Origin: Reyranella sp.
GTDB lineage: Bacteria; Pseudomonadota; Alphaproteobacteria; Reyranellales; Reyranellaceae
NCBI RefSeq assembly: GCF_004297265.1
Contig: NZ_SCUT01000024.1
Location: 248,001 to 312,000 of the forward strand
Length of the DNA: 64,000 nucleotides
Direction: 5' to 3'
Shown piece by piece: positions 31,048-43,331 of this stretch. The translations under genes were made by a program, and so were the position numbers. The notes under the pieces are model-generated. The model did no database searches. It was not told the origin of the DNA and worked only from the letters and a program-made list of their open reading frames with translations. How positions within the stretch are numbered: the stretch's first letter is position 1; each line of letters opens with the position of its first letter.

Positions 31048-31228
31048 GCCCACCCCGATCCCCGGACGATTGGAACTATCGCTATCGGCTAATTGGAAGT
31101 CAATAGACCGCTGATTGGGAATTAGTGGGCGCGATCTGGAAGGGTACGAGGGGAAAGCCTTCCCCCTGGCCGGCGCCTTGGTCGCCGACACACCCCCTTC
31201 TGCGGGGAGGTCCCCACAACGCCCCCTT

Positions 31229-31310
31229 AGAGTGAGAGTGCGGACCGGGTTCGCCGTGACGGGTTGAGGGCTGGAGGAGAGGCCTCCGGCGCCCGTCGCG
31301 GAGACCCGCG
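31229..31310 (+). promoter_or_regulatory. structured leader of ardC, radC-motif-like RNA
   Basis: The 5' leader begins with AGAGTGAGAG (31229-31238). An outer 10-bp stem CCGTGACGGG (31254-31263) pairs with CCCGTCGCGG (31292-31301). Inside it is a 7-bp hairpin CTGGAGG/CCTCCGG around the loop AGAGG (31271-31289). The outer 3' strand runs into the ribosome site GCGGAGAC, so the fold could hide it. The parB leader has the same fold with different paired bases. The radC RNA motif is known upstream of antirestriction and DNA-binding genes; this assignment is inferred. Confidence 0.68.
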
Positions 31311-32270
31311 ATGTCCAGAAAGACCGCTTCAGCGCGCCCCGGCCACGACCGGGCGAGCCTCTATGATGAAATCACCGGCAAGATCATCGCCGAGCTGGAC
31401 GCCGGCCGCGTCCCTTGGGTCCAGCCCTGGGGGACGGCGGCGGCGAAGGCGCCGCTCGCCATGCCGAAGAACGCCGCCACCGACCGGCGGTATTCGGGGA
31501 TCAACGTCCTGATCCTCTGGGGCGCGGTGATCGAGCACGGCTTCCCCACCCAGAGCTGGCTCACCTTTCGCCAGGCGCTCTCGCTCGGCGGCCACGTCCG
31601 CAAAGGCGAGCGTGGCACGACCGTCGTCTATGCCGACCGCTTCGTACCCGACGATGAAAAGCGACGCGCCCGCGACACCGGCGAGGAAGCCGCCGCGATT
31701 CCGTTCCTGAAGCGGTTCACCGTCTTCAACGCCGCCCAGTGCGAGAATCTGCCCGCCGACGTGGCGGCCGTCGCACCACCGCCGCCGCCAGACCTGATCG
31801 AGCCGAGGGTCGAGGCGCTGATCCGGGCGATCGGCGTCGACTTCCGCATCGGCGGCAACCGCGCCTTCTACGCGCCGGGCCCGGACTTCGTGATGGTCCC
31901 GCCGCCGCAGGCCTATTTCGAGCCGATCAACTGGCACCGCACGGCCCTGCACGAGCTGGGGCACGCCAGCGGCCATCCGTCCCGTCTCGGCCGGGATCTC
32001 GGCGGCACGTTCGGCAGCAAGAAATATGCGTTCGAGGAGCTGGTCGCGGAGATGAACGCCGCCTTCTGCTGCGCCTCGCTCGGCATCGTCCCGACCGTGC
32101 GCCATGCGGATTATATCGGCTCCTGGCTCGACGTGCTGCGCGAGGACAACCGCGCCGTCGTGCGCGCTGCCTCCCAGGCCAGCAAGGCGGCCGACTGGAT
32201 TCTCGGCTTCCTCCCTCAGACCGAGAACGCCGCCGCCCAAGCTGCCCCGACAGCGCAGGAGGCGGCGTGA
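31311..32270 (+). CDS. ardC: ArdC family antirestriction protein
   Basis: A 319-aa protein. An N-terminal single-strand-DNA-binding domain (DUF1738; about 10-145, with GRVPWVQPW, YSGINVLILW and RKGERGTTVVY) is joined to a zincin metallopeptidase domain with HELGH at 214-218 and a downstream FEELVAEM. ArdC proteins protect incoming conjugative DNA from restriction during entry. The ATG is preceded by a structured leader that could delay translation until needed. The next gene starts on the A of its TGA (TGATG). On an element carrying its own methylase and nucleases, ArdC could also protect the element from resident systems in a new host. Confidence 0.92.
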   Translation: MSRKTASARPGHDRASLYDEITGKIIAELDAGRVPWVQPWGTAAAKAPLAMPKNAATDRRYSGINVLILWGAVIEHGFPTQSWLTFRQALSLGGHVRKGERGTTVVYADRFVPDDEKRRARDTGEEAAAIPFLKRFTVFNAAQCENLPADVAAVAPPPPPDLIEPRVEALIRAIGVDFRIGGNRAFYAPGPDFVMVPPPQAYFEPINWHRTALHELGHASGHPSRLGRDLGGTFGSKKYAFEELVAEMNAAFCCASLGIVPTVRHADYIGSWLDVLREDNRAVVRAASQASKAADWILGFLPQTENAAAQAAPTAQEAA

Positions 32271-33217
32271 TGCTGGACCTCCTCCCATCCGCGGCCGTCA
32301 GCGACACGCCTGCGTCAGAGTCGATCCGGCTCCGTGTGCTCAGCCTCGGCGCCGGCGTGCAGTCGACCACGCTCGCGCTAATGGCCGCCCACGGCGAGGT
32401 CGGGCCGATGCCCAACTGCGCCATCTTCTCCGACACCGGCTGGGAGCCTGACGCCGTTTACGAGCACCTGACCTGGCTCATGTCGCCCAACGTGCTGCCG
32501 TTCCCCATCCACATCGTCTCGGCCGGCAACATCCGCGACAACCTGATCGCCGGAGCACAGGGTGCGCGCTGGGCGTCGATCCCGGCTTTCACCCGCAACG
32601 TCACGCCGGCCGGCACGGCCATGCCCGTGTTCGACGAGGGCGACGACGGCGAGATGGTGGCGATCGGCGAGCGCATCCTGCCGACCGATCGCGTCGATGT
32701 CGGGATGATCCGCCGCCAATGCACCAAGGACTACAAGATCGTCCCGATCCGGCGGAAGGTACGCGAGCTCGTCGGCCTCACGGGGCGGCGCTCGCCCAAG
32801 ACGCCGATCGTCGAACAGTGGATCGGCATCTCGCTCGACGAGGCGATCCGCATGAAGCCCTCGTTCGAGGACTGGCAGGTCAATCGCTGGCCGCTGATCG
32901 AACAGCGTCTGTCCCGGCGCGACTGCCTGCGCTGGCTCAAACAGCATGATTATCCCATCCCGCCGAAGAGCGCCTGCATCGGCTGTCCCTTTCACTCAGA
33001 CGCCCATTGGCGCCGGATGCGGGAGGACGACCCCGAGGCCTGGGCCGACGCCATCGCGGTCGATCGCGCCATTCGCACCGGCTTCCGCGGCATTCGCGGC
33101 CAACTCTTCCTTCATCGTTCCGCCGTGCCGCTCGATCAGGCCGATCTCTCCAACGCGAACGATCGCGGCCAGCTCGATCTCTGGCCCAACGAATGCGAGG
33201 GCATGTGTGGGGTGTGA
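32270..33217 (+). CDS. phosphoadenosine phosphosulfate reductase-like PP-loop protein
   Basis: A 315-aa member of the PAPS-reductase/adenine-hydrolase superfamily. The PP-loop is LSLGAGVQSTT (residues 24-34), followed by CAIFSDTGWEP. Near the C-terminus the cysteine-rich SACIGCPFHS recalls a metal- or cluster-binding site. Sulfate assimilation is unlikely, because the family's mobile-element branch is always next to ArdC/ParB-type genes and is related to DndC-like proteins that modify DNA. The exact reaction is unknown. AGGAGG lies eight bases upstream of an ATG that overlaps the ardC stop, so the two are coupled. It could modify nucleic acid or support antirestriction. Confidence 0.8.
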   Translation: MLDLLPSAAVSDTPASESIRLRVLSLGAGVQSTTLALMAAHGEVGPMPNCAIFSDTGWEPDAVYEHLTWLMSPNVLPFPIHIVSAGNIRDNLIAGAQGARWASIPAFTRNVTPAGTAMPVFDEGDDGEMVAIGERILPTDRVDVGMIRRQCTKDYKIVPIRRKVRELVGLTGRRSPKTPIVEQWIGISLDEAIRMKPSFEDWQVNRWPLIEQRLSRRDCLRWLKQHDYPIPPKSACIGCPFHSDAHWRRMREDDPEAWADAIAVDRAIRTGFRGIRGQLFLHRSAVPLDQADLSNANDRGQLDLWPNECEGMCGV

Positions 33218-33301
33218 TCTGCCTGAAATCCGGAAAAGCGGGAAGGCGGGCTTCCGCCTCCGGGTCTTTCCGGTTCCTCGGCTTGGCGGCGCGGCTCTCC
33301 A

Positions 33302-33384
33302 AGAGTGAGAGGGCTGCGCCGGTTTTCGTGACGGGTTTCAGTCCGAGAGAGAGGCTCTCGGCGCCCGTTGCGGAGACTACTCCA
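33302..33384 (+). promoter_or_regulatory. structured leader of parB, second radC-motif-like RNA
   Basis: It has the same layout as the ardC leader: AGAGTGAGAG (33302-33311), outer stem TCGTGACGGG (33326-33335) with CCCGTTGCGG (33364-33373), and an inner perfect hairpin CCGAGAG/CTCTCGG around the identical loop AGAGG (33343-33361). Differences between the two copies preserve pairing. GGAG at 33372-33375 overlaps the outer stem, so the fold can mask the ribosome site of parB. Confidence 0.68.
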
Positions 33385-35517
33385 ATGGCTACTGCCGTTC
33401 AGAAGATCACCCTGTCGTCCTCGCGCGACATTCCCTTCAACAAGCTGGTGCTGAGCCAGTCCAACGTCCGGCGCGTGAAGGCCGGCGTCTCGATCGAGGA
33501 GCTGGCCGAGGACATCGCCCGACGCACGTTGCTCCAGGGCCTCAACGTCCGGCCGGTCCTCGACGCCGAGGGCGGGGAGACCGGCATGTTCGAAATCCCG
33601 GCCGGCGGCCGGCGCTACCGGGCGCTCGAGCTGCTGGTGAAGCAGAAGCGCCTGGCCAAGACCGCGCCCGTCCCATGCGTGGTCCGCGATCCCGGCACCG
33701 ACATCCTCGGCGAGGACGACTCGCTGGCTGAGAACATCCAGCGCGCGCCGCTGCATCCGCTCGACCAGTTCCGCGCTTTCCAGGCTCTGCGTGAGAAGGG
33801 GCACTCCGAGGAGGACATCGCCGCCGCCTTCTTCGTCGGCGTGAACGTGGTGAAGCAGCGCCTGCGCCTGGCGTCGGTCTCGCCGACCCTGCTCGACGTC
33901 TATGCCGAGGACGGCATGTCGCTCGAGCAGCTCATGGCCTTCACCGTCACCGCCGACCATGCCCGCCAGGAGCAGGTCTGGCAGGCGATCACCGGGTCCT
34001 GGTCGAAGGAGCCCTATCAGATCCGCCGCATGCTGACGGAGAAGGCGGTGCGCGCCTCCGACCGGCGGGCAGTGTTCGTCGGGCTTGACGCCTACGAGGC
34101 AGCGGGCGGCGTGGTGCTGCGCGACCTGTTCCAGTCCGACGATGGCGGCTGGCTCGAGGACATCGCACTGCTCGACGGCCTGGTCGCCGAGAAGCTGAAG
34201 GCCGAGGCCGAAACGATCGCCGCCGAGGGCTGGAGGTGGATCGAGGTCGCCATCGACTTCCCCTATGGCCGCACCCACGGGCTGCGCGCGCTGGAGGGTG
34301 TCGCCGCCGATCTCACCACCGAGGAGCAGGCGACGATCGACGCGCTGAACGCCGAATACGCCAAGCTCGAAGCCGAGTATGACGGCGCCGACGAGCTGCC
34401 CGACGAGGTGGACGAACGCCTCGGCGAGATCGAAGCGGCGCTCGCCGCCTTCGACCATCGGCCCGTCACCTATGACCTGACCGACATCGCCCGCGCCGGC
34501 GTCTTCATCAGCATCGATGCCGAAGGCGCGCTGTCAGTCGACCGCGGCTACGTCCGGCCGGAGGACGAGTCGCCTGTGGGCGAACCGGAGCAGGATGGCG
34601 AGGCCGATCCCGCAACGGCCGGGCCGACCCACGCCGATCCCGACACACCCGTGGTTCAGCGCGCCGTCATCACCATCGGCGGCCAGGTCGCCGGGCCGGA
34701 GGATGAAGACGACGAGGACCTGAACCCGCTACCGGATCGCTTGGTCACCGAGCTGACGGCCGAGCGGACGCTGGCGCTCCGCGACAAGCTCGCGAACACG
34801 CCCGCCGTGGCGTTCCAGGCCGTGCTGCACAAGTTCTGCCTCGACGTCTTCTCCCGCTATTTCTCCCACGGGACTGCGATGGAGGTGTTGGTGCGCAGCG
34901 CCAGCTTCCCGGTGCAGGCGCAGGGACTAAAGGACACGCCCGCGGCGAAGGCGATCGACGCGCGCCACAAGAGCTGGGAGGAGCGGCTGCCCAAGGACAA
35001 GGCCGATCTCTGGGACTGGCTCACCACCCTCACGGGCGACGAGCAGGCAGTGCTCTTTGCCCATTGCGCCTCCTTCGGGGTCAATGCGCTCTACGAAAAG
35101 GGCGACCGGTACGGCGCGGGTGTCTCGTCGCACACCGTCGGGCAGCGCATCGCCGAGGCCGATCGCCTGGCCCAGGCCGTCGATCTCGACATGGTGCAGG
35201 CCGGATGGCGTCCGACCGTCGAGAACTATCTCGGCCGGGTGCCCAAGCGCCGCATCCTCGAGGCGGTGCAGGAAGGCGCCGGAGAACGGGCGGCGCAGCT
35301 CATCGACCATCTGAAGAAGGGCGACATGGCCAAGGAGGCCGAGCGGCTACTGGCCGACACCGGCTGGCTGCCGGAGCCGCTGCGGATCGCCGCTACGGAG
35401 GACACGCCCGTCGAGACCGCTCAAGCCGAAGACGACGGCGAGGCGCTCCCCGAATTCCTCGCCGGCGACGACGAGGAAGCGGAGGCCGAGGCGCTGCAGG
35501 TGATCGCGGCCGAGTAG
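33385..35517 (+). CDS. parB: ParB/RepB/Spo0J-type partition protein
   Basis: A 710-aa protein, about twice the usual ParB length. The N-terminal ParB/Srx-like nucleotide-binding domain holds PAGGRRYRALELL (about 70-83) and ENIQRAPLHPLDQ (about 117-129). The HTH segment EEDIAAAFFVGVNVVKQRLRLASV follows. A helical middle with acidic stretches and a 200-residue C-terminal extension complete it. ParB proteins bind centromere-like sites and load with CTP; this large branch is typical of plasmids and ICEs and is not adjacent to its ParA (here at 50.1 kb). The leader RNA suggests translational control. Two hairpins follow the stop. Confidence 0.88.
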   Translation: MATAVQKITLSSSRDIPFNKLVLSQSNVRRVKAGVSIEELAEDIARRTLLQGLNVRPVLDAEGGETGMFEIPAGGRRYRALELLVKQKRLAKTAPVPCVVRDPGTDILGEDDSLAENIQRAPLHPLDQFRAFQALREKGHSEEDIAAAFFVGVNVVKQRLRLASVSPTLLDVYAEDGMSLEQLMAFTVTADHARQEQVWQAITGSWSKEPYQIRRMLTEKAVRASDRRAVFVGLDAYEAAGGVVLRDLFQSDDGGWLEDIALLDGLVAEKLKAEAETIAAEGWRWIEVAIDFPYGRTHGLRALEGVAADLTTEEQATIDALNAEYAKLEAEYDGADELPDEVDERLGEIEAALAAFDHRPVTYDLTDIARAGVFISIDAEGALSVDRGYVRPEDESPVGEPEQDGEADPATAGPTHADPDTPVVQRAVITIGGQVAGPEDEDDEDLNPLPDRLVTELTAERTLALRDKLANTPAVAFQAVLHKFCLDVFSRYFSHGTAMEVLVRSASFPVQAQGLKDTPAAKAIDARHKSWEERLPKDKADLWDWLTTLTGDEQAVLFAHCASFGVNALYEKGDRYGAGVSSHTVGQRIAEADRLAQAVDLDMVQAGWRPTVENYLGRVPKRRILEAVQEGAGERAAQLIDHLKKGDMAKEAERLLADTGWLPEPLRIAATEDTPVETAQAEDDGEALPEFLAGDDEEAEAEALQVIAAE

Positions 35518-38902: not shown

Positions 38903-38999
38903 TGAGAGGAAGAGGGCGGCCAGGAGGGGTTTGAGCCGGTGCGGTCCGAGAGAGAGCGCCGGCCGGCTCGCCCGTTCCCGCTCTCCCGAGGCTCCCTTC

Positions 39000-41900
39000 A
39001 TGAACGACCTTTCTCCGATCGCGGCCGACCAGGCTGCGCCGCTGTCGCCTGTCCCTCATCCTGACGCTGCCGGCGCGATCCTCGCCGCCGCGGAGCGACT
39101 CCTTCCGCATCTCGAGCGCGGCCAGCGGGTCGATGCTGCGATCCTTCGCAGCGCCATGGAGGCCGCTTTCGGCGCCTCCGACTCCGCCGGCGCTTGGGAC
39201 TGGAAGACGGCCTATGACGCCTGCGAGGCTGCGACCGTCCTCTTCCTCCGCAAATATGGAAAGGCGCTGTTCCGCAAAGCCGACTCTCCGGCATTGCGTC
39301 TTGCCGCCTTGGCCAAGATCGCGGCCCTTCTTCCCACCCACACGCGCCGCTCGACCGAGAGCGAGGCCTTCCAGCAGTTCTCGACACCGACCCCGCTCGG
39401 CCTGGCGGCCTTGTCCGCCGCCGCCATCGCGTCAGCGGACCGCGTCCTGGAGCCTTCGGCGGGAACCGGCCTCCTCGCCATCCTGGCCGAGATCGCCGGC
39501 GGCGCGCTTGTCCTGAACGAGTTGGCCGAGGCCCGGGCGACGCTGCTTTCCTCCCTCTTTCCGGCCGTCACCGTCACGCGCTTTGACGCCGCCCAGATCG
39601 ACGATCACCTCGATACCGCCATCGTCCCGAGCGTCGTCCTGATGAACCCGCCCTTCTCGGCGATGGCCAACGTCGCCGGCCGCGTGGCCGACACCGCCTA
39701 TCGCCACATCGCCTCGGCCCTGGCCCGCCTCGCCGACGGCGGGCGGCTGGTGGCGATCACCGGCGCGAATTTTTCGCCCGAAGCTCCGGCCTGGCGCGAC
39801 GCCTTCCTCCGGCTGCAGGAATGCGGCCGCATCGTCTTCACCGCCGCGATCGACGGGGCGGTCTATGCCAAGCACGGCACAACGATCGACACGCGGCTGA
39901 TCGTCATCGACAAGTCGCCCGCTGAGGATCCGGCGGCGCTGCCGGCATCGCGGGGCATCGCGCCCGACGTGGCGACCTTGCTCGGCTGGATCGCGGAACA
40001 TGTTCCGGCGCGTCTGGCACTTGCGCCGAGCCTCGCGATCCCCGTGTCGGCCGCCGCACCGCGAACGGTGCGGGGCTATCTCGCCCGCGCCGCTGCGGCG
40101 GAGCCGGCCAAGCCGTCCGTCGTCGATCCGGAGGCGGTCGATCTCGCCTATGAGACGATCGAATGGACGCCGCCCGAGGGCGCGCGTCTCAGCGATGCGA
40201 TCTATGAGGAGTACCGGCTCCAATCAATCCGGATTCCCGGAGCCCGGGCGCACCCGACCAAACTGGTGCAGTCCGCCGCCATGGCCTCGGTCGCGTCGCC
40301 GAAGCCGAGCTATCGGCCGCGGTTGCCGGTCGACCTCGTCGCCGACAACCTCCTGTCCGACGCCCAGCTCGAGACGGTCATCTACGCCGGCGAGGCGCAT
40401 GGCGACTATCTCGCCGGCGCCTGGACGGTGGACGAGACCTTCGATCTCGTCACCGCCGCCCGCGACGATGTGCCGAGCGCCGTCCGCTTTCGCCGCGGCT
40501 TCATGCTGGGCGACGGCACCGGCGCGGGCAAAGGCCGCCAGTCTGCCGGCATCATCCTCGACAACTGGCTGAAGGGCCGGCGCAAGGCGGTCTGGATCTC
40601 CAAGTCCGACAAGCTACTCGAGGACGCCCAGCGCGACTGGTCTGCCCTCGGCATGGAGCGGCTGCTCATCACGCCGCTCTCGCGCTTCGCGCAGGGCAAA
40701 CCGATCCGGCTGGCTGAAGGCGTCCTATTCTTAACCTACGCTACGCTGCGGTCCGACGACCGCGGCGAGAAGCTTTCGCGCGTCCGGCAGATCGTCGAAT
40801 GGTTGGGCTCCGACTTCGACGGAGTGATCATTTTCGACGAGAGCCACGCCATGCAGAACGCCGGTGGCGGCAAGGGCGAACGCGGCGACGTCGCCCCATC
40901 GCAGCAGGGCCGCGCTGGCTTGCGCTTGCAGCACGCCCTGCCGGACGCCCGCGTGGTCTATGTCTCGGCCACCGGCGCAACGACCGTCCACAATCTCGCC
41001 TACGCGCAGCGGCTCGGCCTCTGGGGCGGCGAGGACTTCCCCTTCGCCACGCGTGCCGAATTCGTCGAGGCGATCGAGGATGGCGGTGTCGCGGCGATGG
41101 AGGTTCTGGCCCGCGACCTGCGTTCGCTCGGGCTCTATACCGCTCGGTCGCTCTCCTATGACGGTGTCGAATACGAGTTGATCGAACACCAGCTCACCGC
41201 AGAGCAGCGGCGCGTCTACGACGCCTATGCCGGCGCCTTCGCCATCATCCACAACCATCTCGACGCTGCGATGCAGGCGGCGAACATCACCGGCGAGACC
41301 GGCACGTTGAACCGGCAGGCGAAGTCGGCGGCCCGCTCAGCGTTCGAAAGCGCCAAGCAGCGTTTCTTCGGCCACCTGCTCACCAGCATGAAGACGCCGA
41401 CGCTGATCCGCTCGATCGAGCAGAACCTGGCCGACGGCCATGCCGCCGTCATCCAGATCGTCTCGACCGGCGAGGCGCTGATGGAGCGCCGGCTTGCCGA
41501 GATCCCGACCGAGGAATGGAACGACGTCCGCGTCGACATCACGCCGCGCGAGTATGTTCTTGACTACCTCGCCCATTCCTTCCCGGTGCAGCTCTACGAG
41601 CCGTTCACCGACAGCGAAGGCAACCTCTCGTCCCGGCCTGTCTTTCGCGACGGCCAGCCGGTCGAGAGCCGCGAGGCCGTCGCGCGCCGCAATGAGCTGA
41701 TCGAGCGCCTCGCTTCGCTCCCGCCGGTGCCCGGCGCGCTCGACCAGATCGTCCAGCGCTTCGGCGCGGACCTTGTGGCCGAAGTGACCGGACGCTCGCG
41801 CCGCGTGGTGCGCAAGGGCGACCGCCTGGTCGTGGAGAACCGCGCGGCCTCCGCCAACCTCGCCGAGACCGCCGCCTTCATGGACGACCTGAAGCGCATC

Positions 41901-43331
41901 CTGGTGTTCTCGGAGGCGGGCGGCACCGGGCGCAGCTATCACGCCGAACTCTCGGCGCGGAACCGCCGGCTGCGCGTCCACTATCTGCTCGAACCCGGCT
42001 GGAAGGCCGACGCCGCGATCCAGGGCCTCGGGCGGACGAACCGCACCAACCAGGCGCAGCCGCCGCTCTTCCGGCCTATCGCGACGGACGTGAAGGCCGA
42101 GAAGCGCTTCCTTTCGACCATCGCCCGCCGCTTGGACACGCTGGGCGCCATCACCCGCGGCCAGCGTCAGACCGGGGGGCAGGGACTCTTCAGGCCCGAG
42201 GACAATCTCGAATCGCACTACGCCCGCGACGCACTGCGCCAGCTCTACACGCTGCTCGTGCGCGGCAAGATCGAAGGCTGCTCGCTCCAGATGTTCGAGG
42301 CCTCAACGGGCCTCAAGCTCATGGACGCGAACGGCATCAGGGACGAGCTGCCGCCGATCACGACATTCCTCAACCGCCTCTTGGCGCTCACCATCGAACT
42401 TCAGGGGGTGCTGTTCATGGCGTTCGAGCAATTGCTGAACGCCAAGGTAGAGGGTGCCATCGCCAGCGGCGTCTATGACGTCGGCCTGGAGACGCTGCGG
42501 GCCGAAAGCTTCGTCGTCACGGACCGCCGGGCGATCTACACCCATCCCGCGACGGGCGCGGAGACCCGGCTGCTCACCATCACCGAGCGCCGGCGCAATC
42601 GCCCCGTGACGCTCGATGAGGCGCTGGGTCATCTCGCCGATTCCCGCGCCGCGCTGCTGGTCAACGAGCGCTCGGGCCGTGCCGCCGTGCAGATCCCGGC
42701 GCCGAGCCTGATGCTCGACGACGGCGAGATCGAACGCCGCGTTCGACTGATCCGGCCGATGGAGCACCATCACGCCTCGCTGAAGATGATGGACGAGAGC
42801 CACTGGCAGGCGGCGGAGCAGGAGGCATTCGCCACTGCGTGGGCTCGCGAAGCGGCCGAGGTGCCGGAGTTCGCCGACAGCACGCTCCATATCGTCGCCG
42901 GCTTGCTGCTGCCGATCTGGAAGCGCCTGCCGAACGAGTCAACACGGGTCTATCGGCTCCAGACCGACGCGGGCGAGCGCATCATCGGCCGTAGGGTCCC
43001 TCCGGCCTGGGCGGCGAACGCCTCCGTGACCGGAGCTGCCGCCCTGACGCCGGATGCGGCCTTCGCCGCGCTGATGGAGGGCCGGACCGTCCTCGACCTC
43101 GCCGAGGGCCTGCAGCTCCATCGGGTGCGCGTCATGGGCGCTCACCGCATCGAGCTGTCGGGGTTCGCCGACACCATGCGCGACCGGCTGCGCGCCTACG
43201 GCCTCTTCAGCGAGATCATCTCCTGGAAGCTGCGCATGTTCGTGCCGACCGATGCGAACGGCGCCGGCGTGCTGGCAAAACTGCTCGACCACTATCCCGT
43301 CGAGCGTATTGGCGAGCGGGAGGCCGCGTGA
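39000..43331 (+). CDS. strawberry-notch-like helicase fused to an N6-adenine methylase domain
   Basis: A 1,443-aa protein. The N-terminal methylase has EPSAGTG (151-157) and the catalytic NPPF (216-219). The helicase part begins near 470, with Walker A GDGTGAGKGR (504-513), DESHA (about 613-617), YVSATGATT and GLGRTNRTNQ as motif VI. The C-terminal SNO-type domain follows (about 1,000-1,350). Such fusions are widespread on plasmids and ICEs of Alphaproteobacteria and probably mark and remodel incoming element DNA, acting with ArdC in antirestriction. The start is ATG 39000, and its leader may be a diverged copy of the ardC/parB leader. The stop overlaps the Toprim gene (TGATG). Confidence 0.9.
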   Translation: MNDLSPIAADQAAPLSPVPHPDAAGAILAAAERLLPHLERGQRVDAAILRSAMEAAFGASDSAGAWDWKTAYDACEAATVLFLRKYGKALFRKADSPALRLAALAKIAALLPTHTRRSTESEAFQQFSTPTPLGLAALSAAAIASADRVLEPSAGTGLLAILAEIAGGALVLNELAEARATLLSSLFPAVTVTRFDAAQIDDHLDTAIVPSVVLMNPPFSAMANVAGRVADTAYRHIASALARLADGGRLVAITGANFSPEAPAWRDAFLRLQECGRIVFTAAIDGAVYAKHGTTIDTRLIVIDKSPAEDPAALPASRGIAPDVATLLGWIAEHVPARLALAPSLAIPVSAAAPRTVRGYLARAAAAEPAKPSVVDPEAVDLAYETIEWTPPEGARLSDAIYEEYRLQSIRIPGARAHPTKLVQSAAMASVASPKPSYRPRLPVDLVADNLLSDAQLETVIYAGEAHGDYLAGAWTVDETFDLVTAARDDVPSAVRFRRGFMLGDGTGAGKGRQSAGIILDNWLKGRRKAVWISKSDKLLEDAQRDWSALGMERLLITPLSRFAQGKPIRLAEGVLFLTYATLRSDDRGEKLSRVRQIVEWLGSDFDGVIIFDESHAMQNAGGGKGERGDVAPSQQGRAGLRLQHALPDARVVYVSATGATTVHNLAYAQRLGLWGGEDFPFATRAEFVEAIEDGGVAAMEVLARDLRSLGLYTARSLSYDGVEYELIEHQLTAEQRRVYDAYAGAFAIIHNHLDAAMQAANITGETGTLNRQAKSAARSAFESAKQRFFGHLLTSMKTPTLIRSIEQNLADGHAAVIQIVSTGEALMERRLAEIPTEEWNDVRVDITPREYVLDYLAHSFPVQLYEPFTDSEGNLSSRPVFRDGQPVESREAVARRNELIERLASLPPVPGALDQIVQRFGADLVAEVTGRSRRVVRKGDRLVVENRAASANLAETAAFMDDLKRILVFSEAGGTGRSYHAELSARNRRLRVHYLLEPGWKADAAIQGLGRTNRTNQAQPPLFRPIATDVKAEKRFLSTIARRLDTLGAITRGQRQTGGQGLFRPEDNLESHYARDALRQLYTLLVRGKIEGCSLQMFEASTGLKLMDANGIRDELPPITTFLNRLLALTIELQGVLFMAFEQLLNAKVEGAIASGVYDVGLETLRAESFVVTDRRAIYTHPATGAETRLLTITERRRNRPVTLDEALGHLADSRAALLVNERSGRAAVQIPAPSLMLDDGEIERRVRLIRPMEHHHASLKMMDESHWQAAEQEAFATAWAREAAEVPEFADSTLHIVAGLLLPIWKRLPNESTRVYRLQTDAGERIIGRRVPPAWAANASVTGAAALTPDAAFAALMEGRTVLDLAEGLQLHRVRVMGAHRIELSGFADTMRDRLRAYGLFSEIISWKLRMFVPTDANGAGVLAKLLDHYPVERIGEREAA

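Follow-up and report, generated by a model that had tools for sequence, protein, structure and literature searches.

In a 64,000-nucleotide stretch of a Reyranella sp. genome (contig NZ_SCUT01000024.1, positions 248,001 to 312,000; hereafter the window) an ardC gene and a parB-like gene are each preceded by a leader of 74-75 nucleotides with the same layout. What do these leaders do, and to which family do they belong? A first-pass annotation of the DNA had proposed that they are two covarying RNAs that hide the ribosome sites of the two genes, and that they fit the radC RNA motif. The analysis described here upholds the structure and removes the name. On balance we favor the view, with moderate confidence, that these are RNAs controlling translation in cis, members of a single family that shares a trans factor and is distributed over establishment genes of alphaproteobacterial conjugative elements.

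The two leaders, both on the plus strand, follow one plan: a ten-base purine box (AGAGTGAGAG), a variable arm of approximately 14-15 bases, an outer stem of ten pairs, an inner hairpin of seven pairs and a GGAG at the 3' edge. The ardC leader (31229..31303) opens with the AGAGNNAGAG box (31229..31238); the arms of its outer stem (10 pairs, one of them G.U) lie at 31254-31263 and 31292-31301, and the inner hairpin (31271-31289; arms 31271-31277 and 31283-31289) carries an AGAGG loop at 31278-31282. The GGAG ribosome site (31300..31303) is followed after seven bases by the ATG of ardC (31311..32270, + strand), a gene of 319 amino acids with the Pfam domains ArdcN (PF08401) and MPTase-PolyVal (PF18818). 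The leader of the parB-like gene (33302..33375) has its outer-stem arms at 33326-33335 and 33364-33373 (10 pairs), its inner hairpin at 33343-33361 (arms 33343-33349 and 33355-33361, AGAGG loop 33350-33354) and its GGAG at 33372..33375, with nine bases between leader and ATG. The gene itself (33385..35517, + strand) encodes 710 amino acids with a match to ParB_N (PF02195; E 9.7e-6) of 26.0 bits, the Pfam cut-off being 26.3, and to TIGR00180 (E 1.9e-12), below cut-off. Box, both helices and the identical loop are present in both leaders as the first-pass annotation had described them, and the outer stem does reach the GGAG.

Taken one at a time the leaders fold only modestly better than chance (z of -2.27 for ardC and -2.30 for parB), and the strength of the case therefore rests on comparison. 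Two models of 74 positions each were used. R1 was trained on 14 copies, the window sequences among them; because of this, R2 was built from 54 other copies, excluding the window leaders, with pairwise alignment scores below 0.80 of length (the nearest training copies score 0.84 and 0.80 against the two window leaders). R2 finds both leaders in the window at 82.2 bits each (E 6.6e-19), with the third-best place at 16.8 bits. Apart from the longer type II leader described below, the window holds no additional copy above background on either strand; the box alone, with one mismatch allowed, occurs 4 times vs 3.37 expected, which is not significant.

If the helices are real, changes on one side should be matched on the other. 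In the 54-copy set, pairing holds in 94.0% of the 906 cells, vs 87.1% in shuffles; 13 of the 17 pairs change on both sides (6.9 in shuffles, 7 to 9 when the partner is slid) and 71 cells are double-changed (20.6 in shuffles, 14 to 25 when slid). None of 500 shuffles equalled the real counts of pairing, double-changed pairs or double-changed cells, and pairing drops to 36.5-49.9% once the partner is shifted by 1 to 3 columns. Double changes affect 7/10 pairs of the outer stem and 6/7 pairs of the inner stem. The annotation had seen that the inner stems of the two window leaders differ and still pair, and had called this compensatory change: the wider comparison bears this out, with five inner-stem double changes already in the first 14 copies.

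The alignment also tells which strand is constrained. A pattern scan across species (below) had demanded the box and CGTGACGGGTT; because of this bias, counts of conserved bases and of G.U/A.C cells were redone on the 130 copies that remained once those picked by pattern had been left out. One seed copy (L060), refetched via the model search, remains among them, and R1 itself was trained on box-bearing copies. In these 130 copies the outer stem comprises 1045 Watson-Crick, 186 G.U, 15 A.C and 54 other cells. Since an A.C would read G.U on the opposite strand, the large excess of G.U over A.C shows constraint on the sense strand (inner-stem counts are biased by the choice of the best stem; outer-stem counts are free of that bias). 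Outside the stems, each of the eight fixed bases of the box is retained in 118-129 of the 130 copies – all of them found by BLAST or by the box-trained model – and the AGAGG loop is present in 84. Two further candidates were dropped after inspection by eye: a pairing of the box with the inner stem in type I, because the partner varies while the box stays constant, and a short upstream open reading frame (GTG ACG GGT TGA) in the ardC leader, which in the other leader is open into parB and is thus not conserved. Together the comparisons show a conserved sense-strand structure with compensatory change that encloses the ribosome site and ends just before the start codon.

The link to the start codon is close to invariant. 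In 271 of 280 distinct copies a start codon lies 5-10 bases past the motif, the distance being 7-9 in 265 of them (accepted frames had 60 amino acids or more or ran off the contig, and an ATG at 5-10 was preferred among starts of the same frame). The nine exceptions comprise seven copies with an ATG at 7-9 lacking such a frame, one off the contig and one without ATG. By best BLAST match the downstream genes are parB-like (121), ardC (75), DUF932-like (43; a label that rests on plasmid annotation and a Pfam match under cut-off, E 0.0029), an unannotated family of 172-185 amino acids (23), a further small family (4), others (5) or none (9); three of 262 distinct motif sequences could not be placed and are omitted. 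These assignments show that the same leader precedes non-homologous genes. At four loci (L062, L071, L079 and L087) the leader-bearing gene before parB is DUF932-like instead of ArdC. Approached from the genes, 45 matches to the ParB-like protein were obtained in 35 of 385 genomes of the window's class, with at most two candidates scored per genome and their places compared with R1 matches by hand: the leader stands immediately before every one of the 26 homologues that reach 49% identity or more and have their N-terminus covered, and five matches without N-terminus fall outside the comparison.

Several individual loci deserve mention. The window's own genome holds a second ParB-like fragment (G000:C55:4915-6498; 66% identity over query residues 165-700, without N-terminus), on a contig with no leader match. 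Leader-bearing members of the 172-185-amino-acid family include L050 15874-16389, L051 8611-9132 and L047 12885-13430; the roseobacter plasmids L050 and L051 annotate the gene as 'DNA repair protein RadC', and the members compared have no match in Pfam (L050, L047, L096) or NCBIfam (L050, L096). One copy (L086 2610-2682) stands before a gene for an AlpA-family regulator (PF05930), possibly an entry into a control circuit.

How firmly is the ribosome site held? Pairing appears not to end with the ten conserved pairs. In predicted ensembles the variable upstream arm pairs with the remaining Shine-Dalgarno site and the spacer, so that the lock would exceed ten pairs and the extended stem would reach the Shine-Dalgarno site, mostly covering it in parB leaders. 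For the window's parB leader the whole GGAG is predicted to lie within the extended stem, each base being unpaired at most 0.3%; in the ardC leader GG falls in the outer stem, A is free and the final G pairs with the upstream arm (predicted unpaired probabilities, base by base: 0.0002, 0.006, 0.999 and 0.047). Over the family, the mean percentages unpaired for the four bases are 4, 4, 9 and 19 in parB leaders (105), 0, 3, 46 and 26 in ardC leaders (74), 4, 3, 42 and 26 in DUF932 leaders (42) and 1, 1, 66 and 63 in the 172-185-amino-acid family (20).

Because arm and spacer are both unconserved in sequence, their co-evolution was tested by energy swaps: native energies were compared to those obtained with partners swapped within a gene class, the null model being arm columns permuted alike in all sequences. 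Native minus swapped energies were -1.09 kcal/mol for parB (70 copies), -0.81 for DUF932 (36) and -0.56 for ardC (29), vs permuted means of -0.15, -0.21 and -0.11; the real difference was reached by 0/60, 0/60 and 2/60 permutations, respectively, and at 70% redundancy (30, 22 and 11 copies) by 0/60 for parB, 2/60 for DUF932 and 1/60 for ardC. The swaps thus show that an arm of variable sequence co-evolves with the flank of the Shine-Dalgarno site, clearly for parB and DUF932 and more weakly for ardC. An alternative hairpin, P0, in which the variable arm would pair with the foot of the outer stem, was considered and set aside: pooled, 0/100 column shuffles reach it (1 to 26/100 within classes), and its share of the predicted ensemble is near zero (class means of at most 0.09), the extended stem being preferred.

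Many arms present three or four U to GGAGA, as would be expected of a fourU-like RNA thermometer whose U-rich arm melts off the ribosome site with rising temperature. Other arms have no U run, the ten-pair stem is GC-rich, the ardC and parB leaders with their first codons are predicted to fold at -54 and -47.9 kcal/mol, and no Rfam thermometer matches: a thermometer is very improbable.

The tracking of the spacer by the arm bears equally on the idea that the element acts as DNA, as a Frpo-like single-stranded-DNA promoter or operator on the entering strand. The genes are of the leading-region kind, and PMC11541004, on plasmid leading regions, describes anti-restriction genes, single-stranded-DNA promoters and early expression there, the Frpo/ssi promoters being hairpins before anti-defence genes of entering elements, as here; ArdC of R388 is, according to PMC7213743, required in the recipient; and the palindromes that immediately precede many of the ardC and DUF932 leaders, a block with 61 copies, could themselves be an element of this sort. 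Frpo/ssi promoters, however, carry -35/-10 boxes, whereas the leader hairpin holds the ribosome site and ends 5-10 nucleotides before the start codon, so that a promoter of the same gene would have to lie further upstream. There, no column exceeds 0.24 bits over 60 nucleotides in 100 distinct copies of all gene classes (the palindromic block was not set against known Frpo). Added to the arm's co-evolution with the spacer, this leaves a DNA element little chance of being the answer.

The place of the leaders among known RNAs had been given as the radC motif. radC RNAs are placed upstream of DNA-handling genes, and in this the leaders – before ardC, ParB-like, DUF932-like and helicase genes – resemble them. 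The setting on mobile elements would also suit, as would the entry in Weinberg 2010, where radC is given as a candidate RNA of Proteobacteria with a likely cis-regulatory role and a switch function marked unknown. The covariance model decides otherwise: RF01754 has no match at gathering score (40 bits) in the window or its own genome, and none at E up to 10 on the leaders or six further loci. The same model does find true radC RNAs in 4 of 299 phylum genomes, all in one genus outside the window's class, while the leader family is one of Alphaproteobacteria. Nor is there a reciprocal match: on seven radC loci R1 scores at best 7.8 bits (E 1.3), and R2 gives one 18.4-bit match (E 0.007; L229, minus strand) away from the radC place. 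The radC model moreover has 149 positions vs 74 for the leader family. The failure to match disposes of the name, for which we see next to no chance, and leaves the structure standing.

Rfam 15 offers no substitute (0 of 4227 families at gathering score against the 64-kb window). The STAXI motif (RF01728) is, according to PMC2864571, a structured element near antirestriction, single-stranded-DNA-binding protein and integrase genes; STAXI consists of tandem pseudoknots, whereas the leader is a single nested hairpin joined to the start codon, with a two-helix fit of 94.0% and without Rfam match. In the leaders of ribosomal-protein genes and in other protein-binding translational leaders, a structured leader holds the ribosome site and conserved bases lie in a loop or box. 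The present leaders hold the ribosome site in the same manner, within a conserved covarying stem at a fixed distance from the start codon; here one leader is common to several unrelated mobile-element genes, and these show no common metabolic theme of the sort that a riboswitch with a small ligand would suggest. Among the titles and abstract starts listed in literature searches there was no report of the leader (the motif list of Weinberg 2017, 10.1093/nar/gkx699, was covered through Rfam only), and a term search of two genome-wide non-coding RNA papers (PMC11109978 and PMC8632094) found ardC, antirestriction, parB and DUF932 unnamed there; possibly the motif has been described and never entered in Rfam.

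The distribution fits a family carried by mobile elements of one class. A pattern search finds leader copies in 10 of the 75 genomes of the window's family (a reversed control pattern gives one match, in G069). R1 matches occur in 27/385 class genomes and 33/398 phylum genomes, own genome counted in both, with all 33 in the window's class; R2, applied to a second phylum draw with another class at its centre, matches 15/200 genomes, once more without exception in the window's class. Searches of more than 40 genomes used stricter filters, at which weak matches are lost. Among 72,556 plasmid records (BLAST, E up to 0.01) the ardC leader is found in 128 and the parB leader in 66, counts that include redundancy (Pseudosulfitobacter accounts for 31 of the 128). 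By blastn the ardC leader is absent from 20,395 E. coli records. A phage origin was considered and rejected: 0 of 50,697 phage records match the ardC leader by blastn, and the pattern matched four IMG/VR contigs, three of them confirmed by R1 and the fourth weakly by R2 (30.0 bits). The one-genome-per-species pattern scan gave at least 119 stretches, 118 with an R1 match (E up to 0.001), the exception being titled Akkermansia; the remaining titles name genera that we take to be Alphaproteobacteria, with six titles unresolved. Alignment A4 comprises the best 150 of 161 matches. These comparisons place the window leaders in a large RNA family that has no name as yet and is carried by mobile elements of Alphaproteobacteria. 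A 6.5-kb plasmid (NZ_CP155764.1; L049, 3345-3418) bears a single leader and an unannotated DUF932-like frame and is annotated without conjugation genes: the leader plus its gene can thus travel alone.

A second architecture stands before a third gene of the window. A 15.1-bit R2 match upstream of the strawberry-notch-like helicase gene (39000..43331, + strand; PF13872 E 5e-121, PF13871 E 1.2e-95), and a comparably weak match in L048, led to a longer type II leader (38905..38999, + strand; alignment A8) that abuts the ATG at 39000. Its order is the AGAGNNAGAG box, the GACGGGTTTGAG core as in type I, an AGAG-rich apical loop, a CUCUC stretch and the ribosome site. Of the 61 homologues of the helicase N-terminus among the loci examined, 55 yielded a type II leader, the distance from box start to ATG being 90-102 bases; the box is exact in 50 of the 55 and a CUC-type stretch precedes the ribosome site in 53. 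By eye, type II is present also in L198 and, with altered boxes, in L132 and L169; L218 retains the 3' end only, and L115 and L258 are without it. RNAalifold on a MAFFT alignment of type II returned no structure, and an arm-swap test was used instead: in 31 distinct pairs of inner arms, drawn from the 43 of 55 sequences fitting the loop pattern, the native score is 3.66 vs 2.99 when swapped (standard deviation 0.16; 0/500), a statistic that ignores relatedness. Mean folding z is -2.34 for type II (55 sequences) and -3.64 for type I (90 of 150 sequences). Against Rfam, the type II leader has nothing near a cut-off. The homologues show that a longer second architecture with the same box stands before the helicase gene.

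How might such a lock be operated? By default the extended stem would hold the ribosome site and translation would be low. The near-invariant AGAGNNAGAG box and the AGAGG loop, which vary least outside the stems and recur in both architectures, may be the docking site of one shared trans factor; the putative factor, most likely an RNA-binding protein of element or host, would open or tighten the lock. Synthesis of the ParB-like protein, the helicase and ArdC (or the DUF932-like protein that replaces it) would thus coincide, perhaps shortly after the element enters the cell; it is plausible that they are expressed on entry. A more specific version, in which one factor reads the box and the AGAG-rich loop in two architectures and opens the whole establishment operon right after cell entry, with timing set by translation and not by a single-strand promoter, would amount to an RNA regulon for invasion; this we advance only tentatively.

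The same structure could act without any regulation, simply protecting the mRNA or offering ribosomes a standby site at the purine box. Neither factor nor ligand is known; the box is purine-rich and predicted to be approximately half unpaired (means of 0.38 to 0.61 by gene class), as a standby site might be; and ribosomes coming from the upstream gene could open the stem. A constitutive leader, though, needs neither a near-constant loop nor an arm that tracks the spacer, and the helicase genes bear a different architecture with the same box; we consider it rather unlikely.

Several observations weigh against a regulated lock common to all these genes. A stable stem could be permanently leaky and not switched, and the third GGAG base is predicted to be unpaired on average 46% in ardC, 42% in DUF932 and 66% in the 172-185-amino-acid family. 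In the plain swap test ardC is weak (5/60) and the 172-185-amino-acid family gives no arm co-evolution (25/60, 11 copies). The first set of 14 sequences held five double changes in the inner stem and none in the outer, so that the window pair alone could reveal inner covariation only. Of the distant ParB homologues (34-47% identity, N-terminus covered), 13/14 are without leader at the model threshold, the exception being G221, and an unfiltered search of eight loci of distant or truncated ParB matches found no leader (best 15.5 bits, on the opposite strand). The window's own type II leader folds no better than its shuffles (z -0.37).

If translational control by a shared factor is nonetheless correct, several genes that an invading element uses may come under a single RNA-based control and form an RNA regulon of establishment genes. 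It would give a translational answer to the timing of early genes, for which single-strand promoters are the answer described for plasmid leading regions in PMC11541004. A widespread structured RNA family with no Rfam 15 match ties together anti-restriction, partition-like and helicase genes of alphaproteobacterial conjugative elements; its common box and loop could serve directly as bait in a search for the factor, and the leader flags little-known genes (DUF932-like and the 172-185-amino-acid family) as probable participants in early establishment or anti-defence.

The surroundings of the leaders look like those of a mobile element. Between ardC and the parB leader lies a gene of 315 amino acids (32270-33217) without a leader of its own, with a weak SspD match (PADLOC, E 9.5e-10) and no match in Pfam or NCBIfam. 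The leaders sit left of genes resembling an integrative and conjugative element: the strawberry-notch helicase, a toprim protein, DUF736, a relaxase with DUF3363, a coupling protein and TrbB/TrbE-like ATPases. Directly 5' of the ardC leader is the palindromic block (31150-31228, approximately 80 nucleotides), composed of three palindromes: GGGGAAAGCCTTCCCC, an arm pair of GGCG/CGCC type and TGCGGGG..CCCCGCA. Similarity to the window copy identifies it in 61 of the 275 upstream regions, and almost all of these 61 belong to ardC or DUF932-like genes; mostly it has a sharp left edge near 80 nucleotides, beyond which the cargo varies. Its three arm pairs hold G.U vs A.C counts of 0/1, 2/15 and 7/7; because there is no G.U bias, the block is probably a DNA element, for example a boundary left by recombination or insertion, or something akin to a promoter. 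Left of the leaders extends a defence island (9846-31191), the examined genes of which are all on the minus strand: HamA and HamB (Hachiman-like, HamB at 1622 bits), an HNH-nuclease-like protein and an LmuB-like protein, and in addition a DrmMI-like methylase, a DpdE/DrmD-like helicase, an MZB helicase and a PDC-S01 ATPase. The element carries defence and anti-restriction genes together.

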